35,908 nucleotides of DNA from Deltaproteobacteria bacterium (GTDB taxonomy: Bacteria; Desulfobacterota; Desulfuromonadia; Geobacterales; Pseudopelobacteraceae): assembly GCA_021778115.1 (NCBI GenBank), contig JAJYCS010000018.1, forward strand, positions 1-35,908, written 5' to 3'. The position numbers and the translations under genes were made by a program. Shown piece after piece: positions 15,835-26,089 of the stretch. The stretch's first letter is position 1. Each line of letters begins with the position of its first letter. The notes beneath the pieces are model-generated. The model was not told where the DNA came from. It made no database searches and worked only from the letters and a program-made list of their open reading frames with translations.

Positions 15835-16620
15835 GTGGATCTGAACCTTGTCAGGCTCTGTCTGCCGATTCCCCGTGCCGCCGAACAGCTGCTGACCCAG
15901 GCTCTGGCCAGTAATCATGCCGGGTTCGAGCAGTCCCTGCCGTACCTCTGCCGCCGTGCCCTTGCCACTGATCCGGAACTGGTGCGTCGGCATCAGAAGC
16001 CGGGGTTGCCGTTCATCTTCTCCATCCCCAGTGCAGGCAGTATGCAGTGCACGCTGCTGGGACCCGCCATTGCCGAACTGTCTCTCATAGTGGCCACCGT
16101 GGCCTCATTGGCCCATCTGCCGCCGATCTCTCCCCTCACTGCCCTGGATTATCAGGGGCAGACCGTTCCGCTTCGCCCGGCATCGGCAGAGCTGCCCGTG
16201 CTGTCGCTGGCCCAGATGCTGGACCTTGCTACCCCCCGCTATGCCGGCTGTCGCAGCATCCGGGTGACGGTGCAGACCCCGTTGCGTCTGATGGCCGTGG
16301 GGCGGGAACAGACCCGCTTCGACGGGTCCCGGTTTGTGCGTGCCGCGCTGCGGCGGCTTTCTTCGTTGGCGGCCTATTACGGCGTTGCTGCCGATCCGGA
16401 ATTGATCATCCGCCTGATCGGATCCTCTGCTGCGCTCCACCTGCGGGATGCACAGCCGTTACCTCCAGGCCGGGGGTGGCGGGGGATGCTGGGCAGTTTC
16501 AGTCTTGCAGGCGAGTCGTGCCAAGAGCTGGGACCGTGGCTGGAGGTGGGGTCGTTGCTGCATCTGGGTAAAGGCGCCGCCTTCGGTCAAGGCGCCTTTC
16601 AGGTGGTCCCGGTTTCTTGA
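15835..16620 (+). CDS. cas6: orphan Cas6-family RAMP protein (CRISPR RNA endoribonuclease-like)
   Basis: A 261-residue protein. The second half matches Cas6 C-terminal RAMP domains: IRVTVQTPLRLMAVG, then FVRAALRRLSSLAAYYG near residue 180, and the terminal glycine-rich loop HLGKGAAFGQGAFQVV. Cas6 enzymes cut CRISPR repeat RNA. Here no repeat array and no other cas gene is visible within the window; the gene is coupled to the cation transporter gene (three bases apart, GTG start, weak ribosome site). The catalytic residues of Cas6 are poorly conserved, so activity cannot be judged. It could process RNA from a distant array in trans, or be a domesticated RAMP with another RNA target. Confidence 0.78.
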   Translation: MDLNLVRLCLPIPRAAEQLLTQALASNHAGFEQSLPYLCRRALATDPELVRRHQKPGLPFIFSIPSAGSMQCTLLGPAIAELSLIVATVASLAHLPPISPLTALDYQGQTVPLRPASAELPVLSLAQMLDLATPRYAGCRSIRVTVQTPLRLMAVGREQTRFDGSRFVRAALRRLSSLAAYYGVAADPELIIRLIGSSAALHLRDAQPLPPGRGWRGMLGSFSLAGESCQELGPWLEVGSLLHLGKGAAFGQGAFQVVPVS

Positions 16621-16652: not shown

Positions 16653-17507
16653 ATGTCCGTTCTCCGCTCTCGGGCCTCGGCCTGCCATGCCATAACCGTT
16701 GATGTTGAAGACTGGTACCATGTCTGCGGTTACCTCCCTGCCCAGGAGCGGATGCGCCAGCACGAGCGGGTTGAGCAGGCGGTTGGTCTTGTGCTGGAAC
16801 TGCTGCGGACCTGCGGGGTGCGGGGGACGTTCTTTATGCTGGGTTCCGTGGCGCAGCAGCACCCGGACCTGGCGCCGCGCATTGCCGCAGAGGGGCACGA
16901 ACTGGCCTCCCACGGCTGGTCGCACCGGTTGGTGACCGAACTCACGCCTGAAGAGTTCGGCGTGGAGCTGGCACAAACCGCCGATCTGCTGGAACGACAG
17001 ACCGGATACCGCCCGTGGGGGTTTCGCGCCCCGCGCTGGTCCTTAAGCAGGGAGACGACCCCCTGGGCCTTTGCGACCCTGGCAGCGCAGGGGTATCGTT
17101 ACGACAGTAGCCTGACCCCCCTGGCACTGATCGGTGATCCTCAAGGGCACCGCAGTCCCCACCGGATTGAAACCCCCAGCGGTCACCTCTGGGAGCTGCC
17201 CCCCCTGGTGACGCCGACCCCGTTCGGCAATCTCCCCACCGGCGGTGGCTGGGGATTCCGTTTTTTCCCCAGGTCATTGCTCAGATGGACGTTGCAGGGG
17301 TACCAGCGGCACGGACTGCCGGGGGTTTTGTTTCTGCATCCCCGCGAACTCGATCCCGATGGCCCCCGGCTGCACCTGGGCCCGCTACGGGAGTTCGTTG
17401 CCTATGGTCCCCGTTCCAGCGCCGCCGACCGCCTGGAACCGCTGCTGAGACGTGGTACCTTCAGGCCGTTGCGGGAGCTGGTGGAATCATGGCAGACTGC
17501 ATCCTGA
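16653..17507 (+). CDS. polysaccharide deacetylase, DUF3473 type
   Basis: NodB-fold carbohydrate esterase expected to remove N-acetyl groups from an amino sugar using a divalent metal. The 284-residue protein shows TVDVEDWYH (metal and catalytic aspartates, residues 15-23), SHGWSHR with metal-binding H87 and H91, FRAPRWSLS, and a C-terminal region (FLHPRELDPDGPRL to FRPLREL) typical of the DUF3473 deacetylases associated with exopolysaccharide loci. There is no signal peptide, so it should act in the cytoplasm on a nucleotide sugar, lipid-linked sugar or glycolipid. It is the first gene of the cluster and overlaps the glycosyltransferase gene by 19 bases. The substrate is unknown; the neighbours suggest a glycolipid-like molecule. 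Confidence 0.85.
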   Translation: MSVLRSRASACHAITVDVEDWYHVCGYLPAQERMRQHERVEQAVGLVLELLRTCGVRGTFFMLGSVAQQHPDLAPRIAAEGHELASHGWSHRLVTELTPEEFGVELAQTADLLERQTGYRPWGFRAPRWSLSRETTPWAFATLAAQGYRYDSSLTPLALIGDPQGHRSPHRIETPSGHLWELPPLVTPTPFGNLPTGGGWGFRFFPRSLLRWTLQGYQRHGLPGVLFLHPRELDPDGPRLHLGPLREFVAYGPRSSAADRLEPLLRRGTFRPLRELVESWQTAS

Positions 17508-18151
17508 TACCGGCCTATAACGCCGCCCGTACCCTGCGGCAGGTGGCTGTCGACGCTCTGGCGCAGGGGCTGCCAGTGGTGGTGGTAGATGACGGCTCCC
17601 ATGACGGCACGGCAAGCCAGGTTGACGGTCTGCCGGTAACCGTCATTCGCCATACAGCCAACCGGGGGAAGGGGGCAGCCCTGCGTACCGGTTTTGACTG
17701 GGCCCTGGCAAACGGGTATACTGGCATCATCACGCTGGATGCCGACGGACAGCATGATCCCTCCGCCATTCCCCGTCTGGCGGCCGCTGCGCAGGTAGGG
17801 GGCTTCGGCATCCTGCTGGCCTCGCGGCAGAGCCAGTTTGATCAGATGGCGGGCCTGCGCAAGGTATGGAACCGTTTTGGCGTCTGGTGCCTCCGCACCC
17901 GGACCGGGTTTGAGATCAGCGACAGTCAGTCCGGCTTTCGTTACTATCGAGCCGACCTGCTGCGGTCGGTGGTGCTGGAAAAGGATGGCTACGACCTGGA
18001 GATGGAGCTGCTCATGAAGTGCTGGCGGGCCGGTTTCCGTATCGGTTCGCTGCCGGTGCCGGCACGGGTGGCAGACGGCCGCGCAACCAGCCATTATCGG
18101 GCGGTGCCGGATACCTGGAACATCTGTATGACGTTCCTGAAGTATATGTAG
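17489..18151 (+). CDS. family 2 glycosyltransferase, polyprenyl-phosphate-sugar-synthase-like
   Basis: A 220-residue GT-A fold glycosyltransferase without membrane helices. It has ILIPAYNAARTL at the N terminus, VVVVDDGSHDGTA, the metal-binding DxD in ITLDADGQHDP (D84, D86), and DSQSGFRYYR, which corresponds to the acceptor region of dolichyl/polyprenyl-phosphate mannose synthase-like enzymes. It would move a sugar from a nucleotide donor to a lipid-phosphate or other lipid acceptor. ATG 17489 is chosen because the family starts there; GGGAG lies about ten bases upstream. It overlaps the deacetylase gene by 19 bases and precedes a radical SAM gene by 12. Donor and acceptor cannot be told. Confidence 0.85.
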   Translation: MADCILIPAYNAARTLRQVAVDALAQGLPVVVVDDGSHDGTASQVDGLPVTVIRHTANRGKGAALRTGFDWALANGYTGIITLDADGQHDPSAIPRLAAAAQVGGFGILLASRQSQFDQMAGLRKVWNRFGVWCLRTRTGFEISDSQSGFRYYRADLLRSVVLEKDGYDLEMELLMKCWRAGFRIGSLPVPARVADGRATSHYRAVPDTWNICMTFLKYM

Positions 18152-18163
18152 CGAGGGCGCTGG

Positions 18164-19540
18164 ATGCTGCGATCACTGAAAACCTATACCCGCGACAAGC
18201 TGGTTTCCTATCTGCTCTCGCTGGCGACCTCCTCGTCCGACGAGACCCTGATCAAGATGACGCACCTGATGGAGCTGATTCCGCAGAAGGAGTACTACAA
18301 GGCCCGTATCCGCTGGATCCGTGAGTTGATCCGGACGAAGCACCCCTCCATAGCGTTTCCCCGCCGTATCTTGCGGGAGCTGCACCCCAACCAGCGCGAC
18401 AAATGGATCACCAATCTGGCGGTCAATCACCTGCTGTCCGGCACCAACCGACGTAAGGAGTGGGCCGACAGGCACGGTTGCTACCCCCCCTCTACCGTGG
18501 TCATTTCGGTCACCATGCGCTGCAACCTCTCCTGCTACGGCTGCTATGCCGGCGATTACAACAAGGCCCTGGAGCTGTCGCTGGAGGAGATCGACGGCGT
18601 GCTGACCCAGATGAAGGAGATGGGGATCTATTTCGCCGTCATCTCCGGCGGTGAGCCGTTTTTCATGGATGGCATCTTCGAGCTGTTCAAGAAACATAGC
18701 GACATGGCCTTCCTGGTCTTTACCCACGGCGGCCTGATCGACGAGGCGATGGTTGAGCGTCTGATTGAGGTGGGCAATGTCATGCCGGCCTTCTCGCTGG
18801 AGGGGTACCGCCAGGAGACCGACGAACGGCGTGGTACCGGGCATTTCGACAAGGTGCTGCACGCCATGGGGCTGTTGCGGGAAAACGGACTCTCCTTCTG
18901 TGGCTCCTTCACCCACTCCAGCAAGAATACCGCTATCATCACCGACCCCAACTATATCGACTTCCTGCTGGAACAGGGGGTCTTCGCCCTCTGGTTGTTC
19001 TCCTACGTGCCGGTGGGGAGGGAGCCGAACCCCGATCTGATGCCCAGCCCGGAACAGCGCGACCGTCTGCGGCGGGCCACGGTGCAGTTCCGGGCCACCC
19101 GGCCGATGCTGTTTGTCGATTTCTGGAACGACGGCCCGCTCATTTCAGGTTGCCTCGCTGCCGGCCGCAAGTACCTCCATATCAACGCCAATGGCGATAT
19201 CGAACCCTGCGTCTTCTGCCACTTTGCCGTGGACAACATCCGCCGCAGCAGCCTGCAGGAGGCGCTCGGCTCGCCGCTATTCCGCATGATCCGGGAACGT
19301 CAGGGAGAACATGACAACCTGTTGCGCCCCTGCATGCTGATCGATCATCCCGACTACGGCCGTGAGTTCTTTGCGAGCGAGGGGGCCTACCCGACCCACG
19401 AGGGGGCCGAGACGATCTTTACCACGCTGGCAGACCGGATGGATGATTATGCGCGTAGGTACGGTGAGATCGCCGATCCGGTGTGGGCGCAGGAGTTCAG
19501 TGAGTATCCGGTGCGAAGCCGCATAAGCGGCGTTCGTTAA
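18164..19540 (+). CDS. radical SAM enzyme with SPASM-like C-terminal cluster region
   Basis: A 458-residue radical SAM enzyme. The 4Fe-4S motif is C120-x3-C124-x2-C127 (MRCNLSCYGCYAG), followed by the SAM-contacting VISGGEPFF. The C-terminal part has NANGDIEPCVFCHF with C349 and C352, plus C330 and C390, resembling SPASM/twitch auxiliary-cluster domains. An alpha-helical region of about 100 residues precedes the core. There is no B12 domain. SPASM proteins often modify peptides, but no precursor peptide gene is visible next to it. Within this cluster it more likely acts on a lipid or sugar intermediate, for example C-C bond formation, dehydrogenation or epimerisation. The exact reaction is not known. 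Confidence 0.82.
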   Translation: MLRSLKTYTRDKLVSYLLSLATSSSDETLIKMTHLMELIPQKEYYKARIRWIRELIRTKHPSIAFPRRILRELHPNQRDKWITNLAVNHLLSGTNRRKEWADRHGCYPPSTVVISVTMRCNLSCYGCYAGDYNKALELSLEEIDGVLTQMKEMGIYFAVISGGEPFFMDGIFELFKKHSDMAFLVFTHGGLIDEAMVERLIEVGNVMPAFSLEGYRQETDERRGTGHFDKVLHAMGLLRENGLSFCGSFTHSSKNTAIITDPNYIDFLLEQGVFALWLFSYVPVGREPNPDLMPSPEQRDRLRRATVQFRATRPMLFVDFWNDGPLISGCLAAGRKYLHINANGDIEPCVFCHFAVDNIRRSSLQEALGSPLFRMIRERQGEHDNLLRPCMLIDHPDYGREFFASEGAYPTHEGAETIFTTLADRMDDYARRYGEIADPVWAQEFSEYPVRSRISGVR

Positions 19541-19546
19541 CGCGGT

Positions 19547-20446
19547 ATGGCCCTTTACAGTAGCTTCAACCTGGCGTTGATCTCACTTTTTACCCGCGTG
19601 GCGCCGCGTTCTTTGATCCCCCCGTGTGCCGCCCTGACCGCCACGCTGTTCTACCTGTTGTTGCCCCGGCAGCGGCAGGGGATGCGTGCCAACCTGCGGG
19701 TGGTGACCGGTCGTCAGCGGGTGGAGCGGTTGGTCTGGTCCGGTTTTTACCAGTTTGCCCGTAACTGGTGTGATCTGATGCTGATGGCGCGTCTGCGTGG
19801 GGATCGGCTGCAGGCGTTGATCGGTAGACGTAGCGCCCCTGAGCCGTTGGAGAGGGCTTTGACAGCGGGAAATGGGGCGATCCTGATCTCGGCGCACCTC
19901 GGCACCTGGGAGTTGGGGGGACTCGCACTGGCCGATCTGGGGTACCGGGTGAACGTCCTTACCTTCCGTGAACCGGACGAACAGGTCAACCGCCAACGTC
20001 GGCAAATCCGGGAAGAGCGGGGGATCGGGGTGATCTATGTCGATCGGGATGACAGCTCCCCCCTGGCCATCATCGAGGCGGTCAATGCCCTGCGCCGTAA
20101 CGAGATCGTCTGCCTGATCGGCGATAGGGACGGTTCCTCCAATACCGTGACGGTCCCGTTCTTTGGCCATCCCACGCCCTTACCGGCTGGCGCCGCCCAT
20201 TTATCACTGGCCACCGGAGCGCCTATAATCCCCGCGTTTGTGGTGCGTGAGGCGGATGGACGCTACACCACGTTGATGGAGGAGTCGATCTTTTTCACGG
20301 GACGTCCGGGCCGCAACCGCGAGGTGGTAGAGGAGGGGATGAACCGTCTTGCACGGGTGTTTGAGCGGTATATCCGGCAGTATCCCGATCAGTGGTATAC
20401 TTTTTTCGATTTCTGGCATTCTACACAAAGGAATGAACATGTCTGA
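19547..20446 (+). CDS. LpxL/HtrB-like acyltransferase
   Basis: A 299-residue membrane-associated acyltransferase of the lysophospholipid/lipid A late acyltransferase group. It has a hydrophobic N-terminal segment, the catalytic H-x4-E box SAHLGTWELGG (H117, E122), and the conserved DRDGSSNTVTVPFFGHPTPLPAG and DQWYTFFDFW regions. Family members move an acyl chain from an acyl-ACP to a sugar or lipid hydroxyl on the inner membrane. The gene for an acyl carrier protein starts inside its 3' end, so a dedicated ACP donor is likely. LpxL-like proteins also occur in aryl polyene clusters, where they attach the chain to a lipid. It is probably not the housekeeping LpxL, given its surroundings. Confidence 0.85.
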   Translation: MALYSSFNLALISLFTRVAPRSLIPPCAALTATLFYLLLPRQRQGMRANLRVVTGRQRVERLVWSGFYQFARNWCDLMLMARLRGDRLQALIGRRSAPEPLERALTAGNGAILISAHLGTWELGGLALADLGYRVNVLTFREPDEQVNRQRRQIREERGIGVIYVDRDDSSPLAIIEAVNALRRNEIVCLIGDRDGSSNTVTVPFFGHPTPLPAGAAHLSLATGAPIIPAFVVREADGRYTTLMEESIFFTGRPGRNREVVEEGMNRLARVFERYIRQYPDQWYTFFDFWHSTQRNEHV

Positions 20447-20696
20447 TGAGCTGCTGCCTCAGGTAAAACAGATGATCATTGACGCGCTGCGGATCGAGGG
20501 GATGGCCCCCGATGAGATCGACAACGATGCCCCCCTGTTTGGCGAAGGGCTGGGGCTTGATTCCATCGATGCCCTGCAGCTGGTGGTTGCCATGGAGAAG
20601 GAGTTCGGTGTGGTGGTGCCGGATGCCGCCACCGGCACCACGGTGTTCGCCTCGGTGCGTGCCATGGCGGCCTATATTGCAGAACATCGTAAGTAG
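20439..20696 (+). CDS. dedicated acyl carrier protein
   Basis: An 85-residue ACP with the phosphopantetheine serine S42 in GLGLDSIDALQLVVAMEKEFG. ATG 20439 has AAAGGAA at the right distance and overlaps the acyltransferase gene by eight bases. It ends in a typical helix (ASVRAMAAYIAEHRK). It is not placed with fab genes as the housekeeping ACP usually is; it lies among acyltransferase, radical SAM and thioesterase genes, so it presumably carries the intermediate that these enzymes modify. Compared with primary ACPs the stretch PLFGEGLGLDSID is closer to ACPs of specialised lipid pathways. Confidence 0.93.
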   Translation: MSDELLPQVKQMIIDALRIEGMAPDEIDNDAPLFGEGLGLDSIDALQLVVAMEKEFGVVVPDAATGTTVFASVRAMAAYIAEHRK

Positions 20697-20711
20697 CGGT
20701 AGGCCCTGGCC

Positions 20712-22010
20712 ATGAAGATCCTCTTTCTCTCTCCAGGCTGGCCCAAGGGACGGTTGTGGGGAGAGTTGGGTTTTAAGTTTCCCACCCTGTCGTTGGCCGC
20801 CCTGGCGGCGGTCACGCCACCGCAATGGGAGGTGGCGTTTCATGATGATGCCATCCGCCCCACCCCGTTTGACAGCGATGCCGATCTGATCGCCCTGACC
20901 GCCATGACCGCCCAGGTTACCCGGGCCTACCAGCTGGCTGACGCCTTTCGTGAACGGGGCAAGACGGTGCTGATGGGCGGTTTTCACGCCAGCAACCTGC
21001 CGGAGGAGGCGCTCCAGCATGTTGACAGCGTGGTGGTGGGGGAGGGGGAGCTGGTCTGGCCGCAGCTCCTGGCTGATTTCCAGGCCGGTCGGTTGCTGCC
21101 TGTCTACCGGGCCGATGGCCTGCTGGACGCCAGTCTGATCCCGCCGGCCCGCCGAGAAATATTCAACGGTTCGGGCCATTTCTTCACCAATACCATCCAG
21201 ACCACCCGTGGTTGCCCCTTTGATTGCGAGTTCTGTTCCGTAACCGCTTTTTATGGTCGCAACTACCGCAAGCGGCCGGTTGAGCAGGTGCTGGCCGAGC
21301 TGGAACAGCTGCGCAAGGTCAATTCGTTCATCTTTTTTGTCGATGACAACATCGTGGCCGACCGGCGTTACTCCCTACCGTTGTTCGAGGGGATGCAGGG
21401 GATGGGGATCAAATGGCTCTCCCATGCGCCGATCGATTTTGCCGAGGATCGGGAGATGCTCAAGGCTGCCGGTGCATCAGGCTGCGTGGGGATGTTTGTC
21501 GGGTTTGAATCGCTGAATCAGTCCTCCCTGGCCGCCATGGGCAAGGTCACCAACAAGGCGGCGTCCTACAAGGCATACGCCCAGCAGTTCCGCGACCACG
21601 GTATCGGCATCCTCGGTTCATTCGTGATGGGCTGCGACGGTGATACCCCGGCGGTGTTCGAGCAGACCTTACGCTTTTGCGAGGATGCCCGGCTGGAGTC
21701 GGCCATCTTCCCGATCCTGACGCCGTACCCCGGCACCACCGTCCGCCGGCGTCTGGAGGCGGAAGGCCGCATCTTCAACAACAACTGGCAGGATTACGAC
21801 ATGGAGCATGTCACCTTCCACCCCAGAGGGATGACCGTCAAGGAGCTGCAGGACGGCTATGACCGGATCTGCCGCTCGTTCTATTCCTTTGGTTCCATGT
21901 ACCGTCGTCTGTTCAAGCTGCACCGCTCGTTGCAGGTATTCGGCGTCATGAATATCGGTTTCCGCTCGGCCATCCGCAGGAAACGGGCTGACACAGGATG
22001 TGTCGTATGA
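20712..22010 (+). CDS. B12-binding domain/radical SAM enzyme (first of three)
   Basis: A 432-residue class B-type (cobalamin-dependent) radical SAM protein. Residues 1-130 form a B12-binding Rossmann-like domain with VLMGGFHASNLPEEA and VVVGEGELVWPQLL; the DxHxxG cobalt-ligand motif is absent, as is usual in this group. The cluster motif is C168-x3-C172-x2-C175 (TTRGCPFDCEFCSVTAFYG). The region after the core resembles the C-terminal part of hopanoid C2-methylase-like enzymes. Family members mostly methylate unreactive carbon atoms, and some make or rearrange rings. Its gene follows the ACP gene by 15 bases and overlaps the next radical SAM gene as ATGA. The substrate is inferred to be an acyl chain, possibly ACP-bound. 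Confidence 0.87.
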   Translation: MKILFLSPGWPKGRLWGELGFKFPTLSLAALAAVTPPQWEVAFHDDAIRPTPFDSDADLIALTAMTAQVTRAYQLADAFRERGKTVLMGGFHASNLPEEALQHVDSVVVGEGELVWPQLLADFQAGRLLPVYRADGLLDASLIPPARREIFNGSGHFFTNTIQTTRGCPFDCEFCSVTAFYGRNYRKRPVEQVLAELEQLRKVNSFIFFVDDNIVADRRYSLPLFEGMQGMGIKWLSHAPIDFAEDREMLKAAGASGCVGMFVGFESLNQSSLAAMGKVTNKAASYKAYAQQFRDHGIGILGSFVMGCDGDTPAVFEQTLRFCEDARLESAIFPILTPYPGTTVRRRLEAEGRIFNNNWQDYDMEHVTFHPRGMTVKELQDGYDRICRSFYSFGSMYRRLFKLHRSLQVFGVMNIGFRSAIRRKRADTGCVV

Positions 22011-23434
22011 ACATCCTGCTGTTGCGCCCCCATCCCGGTAATGACCGGTTCGGGCTCGGTCCGTTCTTTTGCGTGGAGCCGCTGGGGCTTGAGTATATCG
22101 GCGCTGCCCTGTTGCAGGCGGGCCATCAGGTGACCATCGCCGACCTGCGTTTCAGGCCGGCCCTTGCCAGCTGGGTACGACGTTCCCGTCCCCAGCTGGT
22201 GGGAATCAGTTGCCTGCATACCCTGGAGTTTGACCGGGTGTTGGCAACCGCCCGTGAGGTGCGGCGGCTGGCGCCGGAGGCGTTCATCATGGTGGGGGGG
22301 CATGCCGCGGCGGCCTTCAGCGGTCCGTTGGAGGATGCCGCGGTGGATGCCGTGATGGTGGAGGATGGCGAGGTGCTGATGCCGCGCGTGGCGCAGTGTC
22401 TTGCACAGGGTGCGGCGTTAACCCAGGTGCCCGGTCTGCGGCTGCGCACCGCTGACGGCTGGATCGGCACGCCGGAACTGGCTGAACGTCCGTCCCTTGA
22501 TCTGGTGCCGCTGCCGGCGCGACACTTGGTCAGGCAGCACCGCAACGGGTACCACTGCCTGCTGTTCAAGCCGGTCTGGCTGATCGAGACCGCCCGGGGA
22601 TGCCCCCACCGCTGCTCGTTCTGCTCGGTCTGGCAGCTCTACGACCGGACCTGCCGCGAGCGTTCGATAGAGGCGGTGGTGGAGGATTTTGCAGAGAGCG
22701 GCGATGCGGTTTTTGTGGCGGACGACCTGTTCTGGCACAACCCCGCCCGTAGCCTGGAGCTTGCCGCGGCGCTTAAAAAACGGGGCGTCTACAAGCGCTG
22801 GATACTGGTGCAGACCCGCACCGATTTGATCTGCAGGAGCGCCGAGATCATGGCCGCCTGGCGGCCACTGGCCAAGGATTTCGATATTTTTCTGGGGTTG
22901 GAGGCGGCCAGTGACCGTGGCCTCAAGGGCCTGGACAAGGACTCCGGCATCACGGAAAGCATTGAGGCGGTGCGGATCGCCCGTGAGCTCTCGTACGGCA
23001 TCAACGGTAACTTCCTGGTGGACCCGGAATGGGATGAACAGGACTTCCACCAGTTGTGGGGGTTTGTGGAACGGTATGGCCTGCAGCGGGCCGGTTTCAC
23101 CATCCTGACCCCGCTGCCCGGTACCGACTACTACCGGTCGGTGGCCCACAAGACCGCAGGCCAACCCTGGGCCAACTTCGACATGCACCATCTGCTGTGG
23201 GAGCCGAAGCTCGGGCCGCGGCGGTTTTTCGAACTGTACGCCGAGACCTGGCGACGTTCGATCCTGAACACCGCCGGCGATAAGGGAATCCTGGACTGGG
23301 TGCGCCAGGTGCGCCTCTCACAGATCCCCTACATTATCAGGGTGTTGTGGCGCACGCAGACCATGATGAAACCGGCCGAATACCTGAAGGAGTATTACGC
23401 CTCCTGTCCGGCCATGGCAGGAGTGGCGCCATGA
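22007..23434 (+). CDS. B12-binding domain/radical SAM enzyme (second of three)
   Basis: A 475-residue cobalamin-dependent radical SAM protein. The N-terminal domain has EPLGLEYIGAALLQAGHQV, VGISCLHTLEFDRVL and VMVEDGEVLMPRV. The iron-sulfur motif is C199-x3-C203-x2-C206 (ETARGCPHRCSFCSVW). ILTPLPGTDYY and a long helical C-terminal tail follow. It differs clearly from the preceding paralogue around the cluster motif, so it probably performs another step rather than being a recent duplicate. ATG 22007 overlaps the preceding stop by four bases and its own stop overlaps the FabD-like gene by four, so translation is coupled on both sides. Confidence 0.87.
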   Translation: MNILLLRPHPGNDRFGLGPFFCVEPLGLEYIGAALLQAGHQVTIADLRFRPALASWVRRSRPQLVGISCLHTLEFDRVLATAREVRRLAPEAFIMVGGHAAAAFSGPLEDAAVDAVMVEDGEVLMPRVAQCLAQGAALTQVPGLRLRTADGWIGTPELAERPSLDLVPLPARHLVRQHRNGYHCLLFKPVWLIETARGCPHRCSFCSVWQLYDRTCRERSIEAVVEDFAESGDAVFVADDLFWHNPARSLELAAALKKRGVYKRWILVQTRTDLICRSAEIMAAWRPLAKDFDIFLGLEAASDRGLKGLDKDSGITESIEAVRIARELSYGINGNFLVDPEWDEQDFHQLWGFVERYGLQRAGFTILTPLPGTDYYRSVAHKTAGQPWANFDMHHLLWEPKLGPRRFFELYAETWRRSILNTAGDKGILDWVRQVRLSQIPYIIRVLWRTQTMMKPAEYLKEYYASCPAMAGVAP

Positions 23435-24276
23435 CCCTCTGGCTGTTTCCCGGCCAACCGTTGAAACGGGAGGCCGCGCTGCCTGAAGATGACGATTTCC
23501 GGGGCATCGATCGGCTCTGCCGGGAGTGTTGCGGTTATGATCTAAGGGATCATCGTGCACTTTCCGGCCACCAGCTAAGCCCTCATACCATGTTGCAGCT
23601 CTACGGCGTGGCCATGTCGCTCTACCGGGCCCGACGGTTGCGTCGTGGCGGAGACCGACCCGATCTGATCGCCGAACATTCTCTGGGCATCTATGCCGCC
23701 CTGGCGGCAAGCGGCAGCATTGCGGAAGGGGATGCCCTGGCGCTGGCCGGCCGGATCGGTACCTGCATGGCCACCCTGGGAGAGCGACAGCCCTACGCCC
23801 TGGGCTGCGCCGTCGGCATCAGACGCCAGGCGTTGGAATCGGCAGTAGGCGGGAGCGGGGCCTATCTGGCCAACTACAACACTTCCAGCCATTTTTTGTT
23901 GGCAGGGACGGCGTCAGCCGTTGAAACGGCCCTGGCAGCCTGCCAGGAGGCGGGGGCATTCTCGGTGAGTCAGTTTCCCTGTGAGGCGCCGCTGCATACC
24001 CCGCTGATGGCTGAGTTGAGCGGCCAACTGGCTGCCATCGTCGCCGATTACCGGTTTGAGGAGCCGTTGGTGCCGCTGGTGGAGCATATCGGCCAGACTC
24101 GCCTGACCGCTTCGGCCATCCCGTCCTTTGTGGTGGACGAACTGCTGCAGCCGGTCTACTGGGAACAGACCTGGCGGCATCTGCGTACCGCCGGCTGCAC
24201 CCGTTTCTGCGAGGTGGGCAGCGGCCAGGCCCTGACCAAATTCAACCGTTGGATCGATGCGGAGGCGGCAGCGTGA
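23431..24276 (+). CDS. FabD-like acyl-CoA:ACP transacylase
   Basis: A 281-residue acyltransferase of the malonyl-CoA:ACP transacylase fold. It starts WLFPGQ, has the nucleophile S84 in IAEHSLGIYAALAASG and the catalytic histidine H189 in EAPLHTPLM, and ends YWEQTW and CEVGSGQALTKFNRWI. Two features differ from housekeeping FabD. The GHSLG motif reads EHSLG, and the arginine that binds the malonyl carboxylate (in the usual LRG motif) appears to be alanine (LALAGRIG, A106). This suggests a substrate other than malonyl-CoA, though only an alignment can settle it. It probably loads the ACP of this cluster. Starts and stops overlap both neighbours by four bases. Confidence 0.85.
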   Translation: MTLWLFPGQPLKREAALPEDDDFRGIDRLCRECCGYDLRDHRALSGHQLSPHTMLQLYGVAMSLYRARRLRRGGDRPDLIAEHSLGIYAALAASGSIAEGDALALAGRIGTCMATLGERQPYALGCAVGIRRQALESAVGGSGAYLANYNTSSHFLLAGTASAVETALAACQEAGAFSVSQFPCEAPLHTPLMAELSGQLAAIVADYRFEEPLVPLVEHIGQTRLTASAIPSFVVDELLQPVYWEQTWRHLRTAGCTRFCEVGSGQALTKFNRWIDAEAAA

Positions 24277-24701
24277 TCTGGGATGAAACCAGCATTACTG
24301 TCCGGTTTAATGAGGTGGATGCCTACCGGGTGGCCTGGCATGGCCACTATGTAAGCTGGCTGGAGGTGGGACGCACCAACTTTGCCCGGCGTTTCGGCCT
24401 CGATCCGTTCCAGTTGTCCGAACTGGGATTTCTGGGACCGGTGGTTCAGCTGGAGATCAAGTACCTGCGACCGGCCCGCTGCGATGACACCCTCACCATC
24501 CGCACCACTCTGGAGGCGAGCGAGGCGGCCAACCTGATCTTTGTGAGCGAGATTACCAGCGACGATGGCTGCAGGCTCGCCACTGCCCGGACAACCCATG
24601 CCCTGACCGACTTGCAGGGGATGCTGCAATTCAGGCTGCCGGATGCGGTGGCCCCGCGGGTGGCGCAGATGCAGCGATGGGCAGCGGGAGAGACGCCGTG
24701 A
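24273..24701 (+). CDS. 4-hydroxybenzoyl-CoA-type hotdog thioesterase
   Basis: A 142-residue hotdog-fold acyl thioesterase. It shows the family active-site region VRFNEVDAYRVAWHGHYVSWLEVGR with the catalytic aspartate D16, then FLGPVVQLEIKYLRPARCDDTL. Such enzymes hydrolyse acyl-CoA or acyl-ACP. Here it may release the product or clear misloaded acyl groups from the dedicated ACP. The GTG start at 24273 overlaps the stop of the FabD-like gene as GTGA, and the next gene uses the same arrangement. Similar thioesterases occur in aryl polyene clusters. Confidence 0.87.
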   Translation: MIWDETSITVRFNEVDAYRVAWHGHYVSWLEVGRTNFARRFGLDPFQLSELGFLGPVVQLEIKYLRPARCDDTLTIRTTLEASEAANLIFVSEITSDDGCRLATARTTHALTDLQGMLQFRLPDAVAPRVAQMQRWAAGETP

Positions 24702-26089
24702 AGCTGCTGTTGATCTCGGCCAATCGCGAGCGCTCACCCTATCCGGTCTTTCCGATCGGGCTGGCCTTTCTGGCCGGGCCGCTGCGGGTGGCGGGCCATG
24801 AGCTCTCGCTCCTCGATCTCTGCTTTGAGGCCGACCCGCTCGCGGCGGTGACTGCATCACTGGCCGCCCAAAAGCCGGAGGTCGTGGTCATTTCGCTGCG
24901 CAACCTGGATAACGTCACCTGGCCGGATGCGGTCTCCTACCTGCCTGCCCTGCGCGAGCTGGTTGCTGCCTGCACGGGCAGGGCCACCGTGGTGCTGGGT
25001 GGCTCCGGCTATTCGTTGATGCCGGTGGAGATCCTGGCGGCCTGTGGTGCCGATTACGGGGTGGTGGGGGAGGGAGAGGAGCTGCTGCCCCGTCTGCTGG
25101 ACTGTCTGGCCGTTGGCGCCGATCCTGCCGCCCTGCCGGGCCTGGTGGTGCCCGGCAGGGAAACGTTCCTCCCACCGCGGCCGATTCAGGGCATCGGCAC
25201 CCCCGACCGGCAGCTGTTCGAGGTGGCCCGTTACGTAAACGAGGGGGGGATGGCCAATCTGCAGACCAAACGGGGCTGCCCCTTTGGCTGCAGTTACTGC
25301 ACCTATCCGCTGCTGGAAGGGCAACTGGTGCGGCTGCGGCAGGTCGACCGGATCATTGCCGAGATACGGATGCTGGTCGATCAGTTTGGGGTAGATTACC
25401 TCTACTTTGTCGATGACATCTTCAACTATCCGGTCAGTTTTGCCGAACAGCTCTGCAACGCCATGGTGGATGCCGGCCTGCGGGTCAGCTGGTCGGCCTT
25501 CATCAACCCCGAGTTCATCACCCCGCAGCTGTTGGGGCTGATGCAGCGGGCTGGCTGTGACGGGGTGGAGTTTGGCACCGATTCCGGCTCACCGGTCATG
25601 CTGGAAAATCTGCGGAAGTCGTTCACCCTTGAGCAGGTGCGGTCTGCCACACAGCTGTGCCACGGGGCGGGGATGGACGTTGCCCACTACCTGCTGTTCG
25701 GTGGTCCGGGTGAGACTGACGAGACCGTTTTGGAGAGCTTCCGGCTGATGGATGAGCTGGCGCCCACTGCCGTGATCGCCATGACCGGTATCCGTATCTA
25801 CCCCGGCACCCCCCTGTATCGAACGGCCCTCGATGAGGGGGTCATCACCGCAGAGACCGATCTGTTGCAGCCGGTCTTCTATCTGGCGCCCGGTGTGAAA
25901 GACCGGCTCTCGGCACTTGTCACCGAACAGGCGATGCAGCGCAGGAACTGGATCGTGCCGGGTCTGGAGGTGAATGTCAGCCCGGCCATGCTGGAGGCGA
26001 TGCGGATCTTCAAGGTACGCGGCCCCCTCTGGAAGATGATCAAACGGCTGGGGCGCAGCCATCAGCACCCCTTGTCAGGCGGCCATTGA
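24698..26089 (+). CDS. B12-binding domain/radical SAM enzyme (third of three)
   Basis: A 463-residue cobalamin-dependent radical SAM protein. The B12 domain covers roughly residues 1-140 (FPIGLAFLAGPLRVAGHEL, VVLGGSGYSLMPVEIL, GVVGEGEELLPRLL). The cluster motif is C194-x3-C198-x2-C201 (KRGCPFGCSYCTYPLLEG), followed by YFVDDIFNYP, CDGVEFGTDSGS, HYLLFGGPGETDETV and IRIYPGTPLYR. The latter blocks resemble B12-radical SAM proteins annotated in lipid biosynthesis settings. GTG 24698 overlaps the thioesterase stop by four bases. It is the last gene of the cluster; a new promoter begins at its stop codon. Confidence 0.87.
   Translation: MKLLLISANRERSPYPVFPIGLAFLAGPLRVAGHELSLLDLCFEADPLAAVTASLAAQKPEVVVISLRNLDNVTWPDAVSYLPALRELVAACTGRATVVLGGSGYSLMPVEILAACGADYGVVGEGEELLPRLLDCLAVGADPAALPGLVVPGRETFLPPRPIQGIGTPDRQLFEVARYVNEGGMANLQTKRGCPFGCSYCTYPLLEGQLVRLRQVDRIIAEIRMLVDQFGVDYLYFVDDIFNYPVSFAEQLCNAMVDAGLRVSWSAFINPEFITPQLLGLMQRAGCDGVEFGTDSGSPVMLENLRKSFTLEQVRSATQLCHGAGMDVAHYLLFGGPGETDETVLESFRLMDELAPTAVIAMTGIRIYPGTPLYRTALDEGVITAETDLLQPVFYLAPGVKDRLSALVTEQAMQRRNWIVPGLEVNVSPAMLEAMRIFKVRGPLWKMIKRLGRSHQHPLSGGH

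Follow-up and report, generated by a model that had tools for sequence, protein, structure and literature searches.

Ten genes around a private acyl carrier protein

The subject of this analysis is a group of ten adjacent genes in a stretch of 35,908 nucleotides from a deltaproteobacterium of the order Geobacterales (assembly GCA_021778115.1, contig JAJYCS010000018.1), hereafter the window. Translation of the open reading frames (ORFs) placed all ten genes on the forward strand at positions 16653-26089, as had been described from the letters alone (the sequence-only reading), and each of the gene families named at that time is backed by Pfam and NCBIfam profile matches. The genes are given below with the evidence used for each of them (SAM, S-adenosylmethionine; B12, cobalamin; ACP, acyl carrier protein). 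Presence is counted over 40 loci fetched from relatives, which were chosen for carrying a match to the product of gene 8 and are not a random sample.

16653..17507, + strand: gene 1, polysaccharide deacetylase with DUF3473 (Pfam and NCBIfam; 38 of 40 loci)
17489..18151, + strand: gene 2, GT2 glycosyltransferase (profiles, BLAST to the N-terminal half of ApeJ; 38 of 40 loci)
18164..19540, + strand: gene 3, radical SAM/SPASM protein (profiles, alignment)
19547..20446, + strand: gene 4, LpxL/PatA-like acyltransferase, Lip_A_acyltrans (profiles, BLAST to the C-terminal half of ApeJ)
20439..20696, + strand: gene 5, private ACP of the ApeE type (profiles, BLAST, alignment)
20712..22010, + strand: gene 6, B12-binding radical SAM enzyme a, a core gene (profiles; 37 of 40 loci)
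22007..23434, + strand: gene 7, B12-binding radical SAM enzyme b, optional (profiles; 9 of 40 loci)
23431..24276, + strand: gene 8, FabD/MdcH-like acyltransferase (profiles, orthologue alignment, predicted fold)
24273..24701, + strand: gene 9, 4HBT thioesterase, ApeK-like (profiles, BLAST)
24698..26089 (alternative start 24677), + strand: gene 10, B12-binding radical SAM enzyme c, TIGR04072 (profiles)

The likely starts are slightly off those of the longest ORFs; they were taken from start-codon candidates and, for the FabD-like gene, also from orthologues. With these starts, four-base overlaps are found at four of the nine junctions (22007, 23431, 24273 and 24698), and the other five consist of two overlaps of 8 and 19 bases and three gaps of 6-15 bases. 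ATGA/GTGA overlaps do exist, therefore, but the claim that they join most of the genes was too strong.

The FabD-like protein was searched over 141 genomes of the order and gave matches above 200 bits in 84 of them. All nine core genes, that is the ten without gene 7, were present in 35 of the 40 fetched loci, and a single strand and a single gene order were kept in all 38 loci with at least nine mapped genes, counting the nine core genes and five genes downstream. Co-occurrence of the set in relatives, which had been put forward as the check to make, was thus found as conserved linkage and, as described below, as a shared distribution. Five loci are incomplete: L039 and L068 have no enzyme a and L049 has no LpxL-like gene; L038 lies near a contig end, and the SPASM gene was not found elsewhere in that genome either; L063 (genome G042) is diverged and retains only relatives of the glycosyltransferase, the ACP, the FabD-like protein and LolB. 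In the FabD-like protein of L063, a glycine replaces the active-site serine.

Stretches differ in how many B12 radical SAM genes they carry: 15 loci have two of them, 11 have three, 13 have four and one has none. This variation gives the radical enzymes the look of interchangeable tailoring parts added to a constant core. Insertions were also seen at two loci: five ORFs between the FabD-like and thioesterase genes at L034:920-9352, which by impression only are restriction or defence genes, and a KilA-N protein with an HsdM-type N6 methylase between enzyme a and the FabD-like gene at L058:10251-12618. Among the best 80 of 384 loci in a similarity scan with named records, the closest named matches are Geobacter/Trichlorobacter records, and the named cultured hosts include Trichlorobacter thiogenes, Oryzomonas japonica, Geomobilimonas luticola and Pelotalea chapellei.

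A chain-building and export module beside or apart from the ten genes

The sequence-only reading had pointed to the lack of a ketosynthase (KS) and a dehydratase (DH). This holds within the window but not beyond it. In most relatives examined, gene 10 is directly followed by a run of genes for a ketoreductase (KR), a KS, a chain-length-factor-like KS (CLF), a DH, LolA-like and LolB-like proteins and an MMPL protein; in the genome of the window, the same module lies on another contig. The KR gene is present in 34 of the 40 stretches and starts at most 300 bp from the end of gene 10 in 30 of these 34, the distance being 0.9-7.1 kb in the remaining four. LolB and MMPL were each mapped in 19 of 40 loci. 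These counts are low partly because loci end, and that of LolB is further lowered by divergence, no match being obtained in some MMPL-bearing loci.

The module of the window's own genome is found on contig C69 (locus L160). It reads carB, greA (both named from sequence), an O-methyltransferase on the minus strand, KR, KS, the CLF-like KS, a hotdog DH, LolA-like, LolB-like, MMPL, a small ORF and a B12 radical SAM gene on the minus strand. PF00109 detects three full-length ketosynthases in this genome, one by the primary ACP (contig C94) and the tandem KS and CLF of C69; two further matches pass the family cutoff with 21-25 bits across 38-45 positions. PF00550 detects two ACPs, the one of C94 and the private ACP. 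Within the module, the KR matches adh_short_C2 with 216 bits, the MMPL protein PF03176 with 121 bits and the LolB-like protein PF03550 with 30.9 bits, and the LolA-like protein falls slightly under the PF03548 cutoff (23.3 against 23.6 bits). The DH is weakly recognised, as FabZ-like with 57 bits (cutoff 113) and slightly under the cutoff of Pfam 4HBT. The module showed no recognisable enoyl reductase. The KS has kept its cysteine, both histidines and lysine in all 33 cluster sequences. In the CLF, the cysteine and both histidines are absent from all 36 sequences, the histidine columns falling in a diverged C-terminal part of the alignment, and a phenylalanine stands at the cysteine position in 32 of them.

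The two halves share one distribution. With cutoffs of 200 bits for the FabD-like protein, 140 bits for the CLF and an E-value of 1e-60 for the SPASM protein, all three markers occur in 79 of the 141 genomes of the order and none in 54, eight genomes being discordant; the FabD-like protein without the CLF was seen in 3 of 84 genomes. The FabD-like and CLF genes lie on one contig in 61 of 81 genomes, at a median distance of 4.9 kb and within 7 kb in 53. They lie on different contigs in the other 20, of which four were examined and the others may be contig ends. The four examined, namely the genome of the window and G130, G136 and G129, share the same split, the module following carB, greA and the methyltransferase on a contig distinct from that of the ten genes. 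The split seen in G130 is not an assembly end, as its two halves lie within long contigs, of 228,744 and 127,463 bases, and xseB follows gene 10 as it does in the window. The O-methyltransferase, 28% identical to its aryl polyene counterpart, is divergent and upstream of the KR gene in all four split genomes (L160:3701-4693; L205-L207), and no match to it of at least 80 bits was found in the 40 fetched loci. The GC contents of the ten genes (62.8%) and of the module (62.5%), set beside 59.2% for the rest of the window, are in weak agreement with a common system.

Beyond the order, a search of 395 genomes of the phylum found the SPASM family in 86. Among 20 SPASM loci from this search, a KS match lies nearby in four (L181, L190, L192 and L197), and two loci of a distant family (L186 and L187) hold the SPASM, LpxL, ACP, FabD and thioesterase set with no KS match in the stretch examined. 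As few distant loci have either arrangement, the SPASM enzyme may serve other systems too. Three distant deltaproteobacterial loci (L146-L148) carry genes for KR, ACP, thioesterase, DH, GT2, KS, CLF and enzyme c on one strand, with SPASM and MMPL genes on the opposite strand. In a metagenome-assembled genome of Nitrospirae (L142:3477-10296), genes for a BadF/BadG-type ATPase and an alanine racemase and Mla genes come after that of a SPASM relative (54% identity), and no match to other cluster proteins was found in that stretch.

Concerning the neighbours of the ten genes, the adjacency of xseB-ispA-dxs is confined to the genome of the window and L033 and is uninformative on function. A second dxs-like stretch, with 68% DNA identity to that of the window, lies on another contig of the same genome (G000:C85:6712-8330). 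A lone Cas6-like protein (PF10040, 42 bits) is encoded at 15835-16620 on the plus strand, directly upstream of the deacetylase gene; Cas6-like matches of at least 80 bits occur in 12 of the 40 fetched loci, 5' of the deacetylase gene.

Residues, folds and known relatives

The private ACP passes the NF006617 model (76.2 against a cutoff of 70), and its serine, within LGLDSIDAL, is invariant in 21 sequences. Each of the window's four radical SAM proteins has the CxxxCxxC motif, whose conservation was checked for two of them. About 105 residues at the N-terminus of the SPASM protein form a helical extension; in this protein C120, C124, C127, C330, C349 and C390 are invariant in 16 sequences and C352 is nearly so. 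No close solved relative was found for it, the best fold by E-value being SkfB with a TM-score of 0.48. A Tes-type tetraether chemistry was considered for this gene and dropped, the match to 7tol reaching only 21 bits (E 8e-4).

The B12-binding enzymes differ in how well they can be classified. The nearest models of gene 6 are BchE (94 of 481 bits) and HpnJ (94 of 578 bits), and its nearest solved relative is 9ccb; the nearest model of gene 7 is HpnR (235 of 650 bits). Neither is a member of these families, and hopanoid tailoring was abandoned as a candidate function with HpnR, HpnJ and HpnN scores far under the cutoffs. Gene 10, on the other hand, is a member of TIGR04072, 'rSAM_ladder_B12' (390 bits, cutoff 360). 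It is the sole match above cutoff in its genome, and none of 14 control genomes has one. At the other end of the cluster, the deacetylase is XrtA-like, but membership of the XrtA-system family was dropped because its score of 197 bits is under the cutoff of 276; the nearest models of the GT2 protein are polyprenyl-phosphate glycosyltransferases, far under cutoff.

The predicted fold of the gene 8 product is FabD-like (pLDDT 91.6; best match 6u0j, TM-score 0.82), and the catalytic pair is kept, with Ser92 in 17 and His201 in 18 of 18 sequences. In FabD, Arg117 binds the malonyl carboxylate. At the equivalent position none of the 18 sequences has an arginine and all have a hydrophobic residue (isoleucine in 8, valine in 5, leucine in 2, alanine in 2 and phenylalanine in 1); an arginine one position before this column is common but not invariant. 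The loss of Arg117 suggests that a non-carboxylated acyl group would be the likelier substrate.

A parallel can be drawn with the aryl polyene (APE) pathway of E. coli, which has much of this toolkit as far as the consulted text of its description goes (PMC8253772). We used the apeA-R operon of E. coli CFT073 as reference, the gene letters being assigned to the record by order. The same text assigns attachment to ApeD and ApeJ, release to ApeK, export to ApeL, ApeM and ApeN and starter loading to ApeH, with ApeE as starter ACP (PMC8253772). By BLAST, the GT2 protein matches residues 5-225 of ApeJ (32% identity) and the LpxL-like protein residues 363-550 (25%), which suggests that ApeJ is a fusion of functions encoded separately here. 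The private ACP is closer to ApeE (44%, 2e-18) than to AcpP (36%, 2e-7), and the thioesterase matches ApeK (30%, 3e-13); E-values for the ApeE, ApeK and ApeJ matches span 1e-19 to 6e-13. Common to both systems are a KS with an inactive KS/CLF, a KR, a DH, an ApeE-type ACP, an ApeK-type thioesterase, a glycosyltransferase with an LpxL-type acyltransferase, LolA-like, LolB-like and MMPL export genes and, in the four split genomes, the O-methyltransferase. These matches and the wider toolkit support the kinship with APE clusters already suspected from the window. Compared with them, the present cluster adds the SPASM protein, the deacetylase, the FabD-like transferase and two to four B12 radical SAM genes (39 of 40 loci). 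Against the E. coli operon, the second APE ACP gave no match below E 0.1, and ApeD and ApeG were also unmatched; ApeH, an acyl-ACP synthetase, had no match in the genome of the window in a search made without a positive control. Flexirubin clusters were compared through NCBIfam models only: the KR scores 228 bits to FlxB, the methyltransferase 50 to FlxJ and the LolA-like protein 30 to LolA2_flexi, all far under the equivalog cutoffs (340, 560 and 125).

A second parallel concerns the clusters proposed for ladderane synthesis, compared here by the text of one paper only (Rattray et al. 2009, PMC2649909). For Kuenenia, that text names Kuste2803 as a B12 radical SAM protein, Kuste2805 as a KS that is inactive and has Phe163, and Kuste3351 as deacetylase-like; NP_951518 of G. 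sulfurreducens likewise has a phenylalanine at Cys163. It also reports clusters of Geobacter and Pelobacter carbinolicus similar to the proposed ladderane clusters, whose sameness with the present cluster could not be checked. Like the clusters of Kuenenia stuttgartiensis and Desulfotalea psychrophila, as they are described there, the present one has a B12 radical SAM protein, an inactive KS with the phenylalanine, ACPs, a glycosyltransferase and a deacetylase-like protein; unlike them, it has Lol and MMPL export genes. Phytoene-dehydrogenase-like genes are common to both of those clusters according to the same source. No such gene was found in the genome of the window, where the PF01593 matches amount to two fragments of 30-31 positions. 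No phenylacetyl-CoA ligase was seen among the genes mapped, no genome-wide search having been made. The earlier statement that no described pathway has this composition thus stands insofar as no product was found in the literature; it has to be qualified by the similar Geobacter and P. carbinolicus clusters (PMC2649909) and by the toolkit common to APE synthesis (PMC8253772), in the parts of both papers used here.

A proposed outer-membrane lipid and its alternatives

Altogether, we consider it likely that the ten genes make up one half of an APE-like type II polyketide lipid system, the one for carrier, tailoring and attachment functions, and that the other half, for chain building and export, has been relocated to another contig in this lineage. 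This reading relies on the KR gene adjoining gene 10 (30 of 34 loci), the shared distribution, the active-site states of the KS and CLF and the matches to ApeJ, ApeE and ApeK. It relies further on the existence of a module in the same genome, in a carB-greA-methyltransferase context that recurs in three further assemblies, and on loci L146-L148, where the SPASM gene stands beside the KR, ACP, thioesterase, DH, GT2, KS, CLF and enzyme c genes. The cluster would probably build an unusual polyene-type lipid on its own carrier, to be altered by B12 radical enzymes and destined for the outer membrane. The private ACP, the several radical SAM enzymes and a likely transfer to a lipid or sugar acceptor, all anticipated by the sequence-only reading, are supported by the families and the conserved linkage.

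Several observations weigh against this reading. The Fisher p-value of the co-distribution (7e-33) overstates independence, because the genomes tallied are related. In the lineage of the window the two halves lie apart and must therefore act in trans. Of the distant SPASM relatives examined, most are not beside a KS (4 of 20 loci are). As to the APE parallel, FabG and FabF of E. coli are closer matches for the KR and KS than the APE counterparts are, the similarity of the MMPL protein to ApeM is weak (E 2e-4), and DH, LolA-like and LolB-like proteins have no E. coli APE counterpart by BLAST; the CLF matches APE ketosynthases and not ApeC, and the LpxL-like protein matches ApeJ and not ApeD. 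Finally, no product for the cluster was found in a literature search conducted largely at the level of listings and abstract beginnings.

The families, the gene order, the linkage, the co-distribution and the active-site residues are read from sequences, and the assembly logic they suggest is well supported; we infer the starter, the radical chemistry and the anchor. In a first step, the FabD-like protein, judging by its lost Arg117, would load a non-carboxylated starter onto the private ACP and thus replace ApeH. An alternative for this step only is that the protein acts as an editing acyl-ACP hydrolase, like PksD of trans-AT polyketide synthases. The missing Arg117 would fit such a role, and PksD is found among the structural neighbours of the predicted fold (rank 48, TM-score 0.77); FabD-type malonyl transferases, however, rank higher (0.82) and the cluster already has a separate thioesterase, so that we regard an editing function as unlikely.

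If the FabD-like protein does load the starter, the KS and CLF would then elongate it, and the KR and DH would leave double bonds to give a polyene, as the enzyme set suggests by comparison with APE synthesis. Of the B12 radical SAM enzymes, a and c, together with b if present, may act on the chain by methylation or cyclisation, and a further radical change, on the chain or the anchor, could come from the SPASM enzyme. By analogy with ApeJ and ApeK, the thioesterase, the GT2 protein and the LpxL-like protein would release the chain and attach it to a glycolipid anchor, which the deacetylase would trim. At last, the MMPL, LolA-like and LolB-like proteins would carry the lipid to the outer membrane, as proposed from ApeLMN.

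One would also wonder whether the system belongs to a ladderane-like or anaerobic polyunsaturated fatty acid pathway, in which a polyunsaturated chain is cyclised by the TIGR04072 protein and other radical enzymes into a strained or polycyclic lipid, or becomes a hydrocarbon. Such a proposal could account for gene 10 being the only TIGR04072 protein of its genome, for the phenylalanine of the CLF (32 of 36), as in Kuste2805 and NP_951518, and for the likeness to Kuste2803 and Kuste3351 (PMC2649909). However, of the phytoene-dehydrogenase-like genes of the Kuenenia and D. psychrophila clusters only the two PF01593 fragments are seen here, and D. psychrophila, which has the most similar cluster, yielded no detected ladderanes according to the same text, by which alone the clusters were compared (PMC2649909). 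We hold this possibility to be rather improbable. That the ten genes work alone on an ordinary fatty acid of primary metabolism, the KS module belonging to another pathway, would agree with the separate contigs of the four genomes examined and with L186 and L187, but is very unlikely given that the halves are contiguous in most relatives examined, have one common distribution, and that the FabD-like protein so rarely occurs without the CLF.

The reading as an APE-like lipid system can be extended to a bolder and tentative hypothesis, which we find attractive but doubtful. The B12 radical SAM set could turn an APE-like KS/CLF polyene into a new cyclised or C-methylated, ladderane-related skeleton, an undescribed outer-membrane lipid of Geobacterales, and APE and ladderane clusters would then be branches of one anaerobic lipid system. 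If the reading as an APE-like lipid system is right, many metal-reducing anaerobes, to go by the 79 of 141 genomes with the three markers, would share a conserved and uncharacterised pathway to an outer-membrane lipid, in which a type II polyketide chain is decorated by radical enzymes that do not depend on oxygen. This would link aryl polyenes to the proposed ladderane clusters, which have so far been treated apart, and would offer the named cultured hosts for the study of TIGR04072 enzymes.

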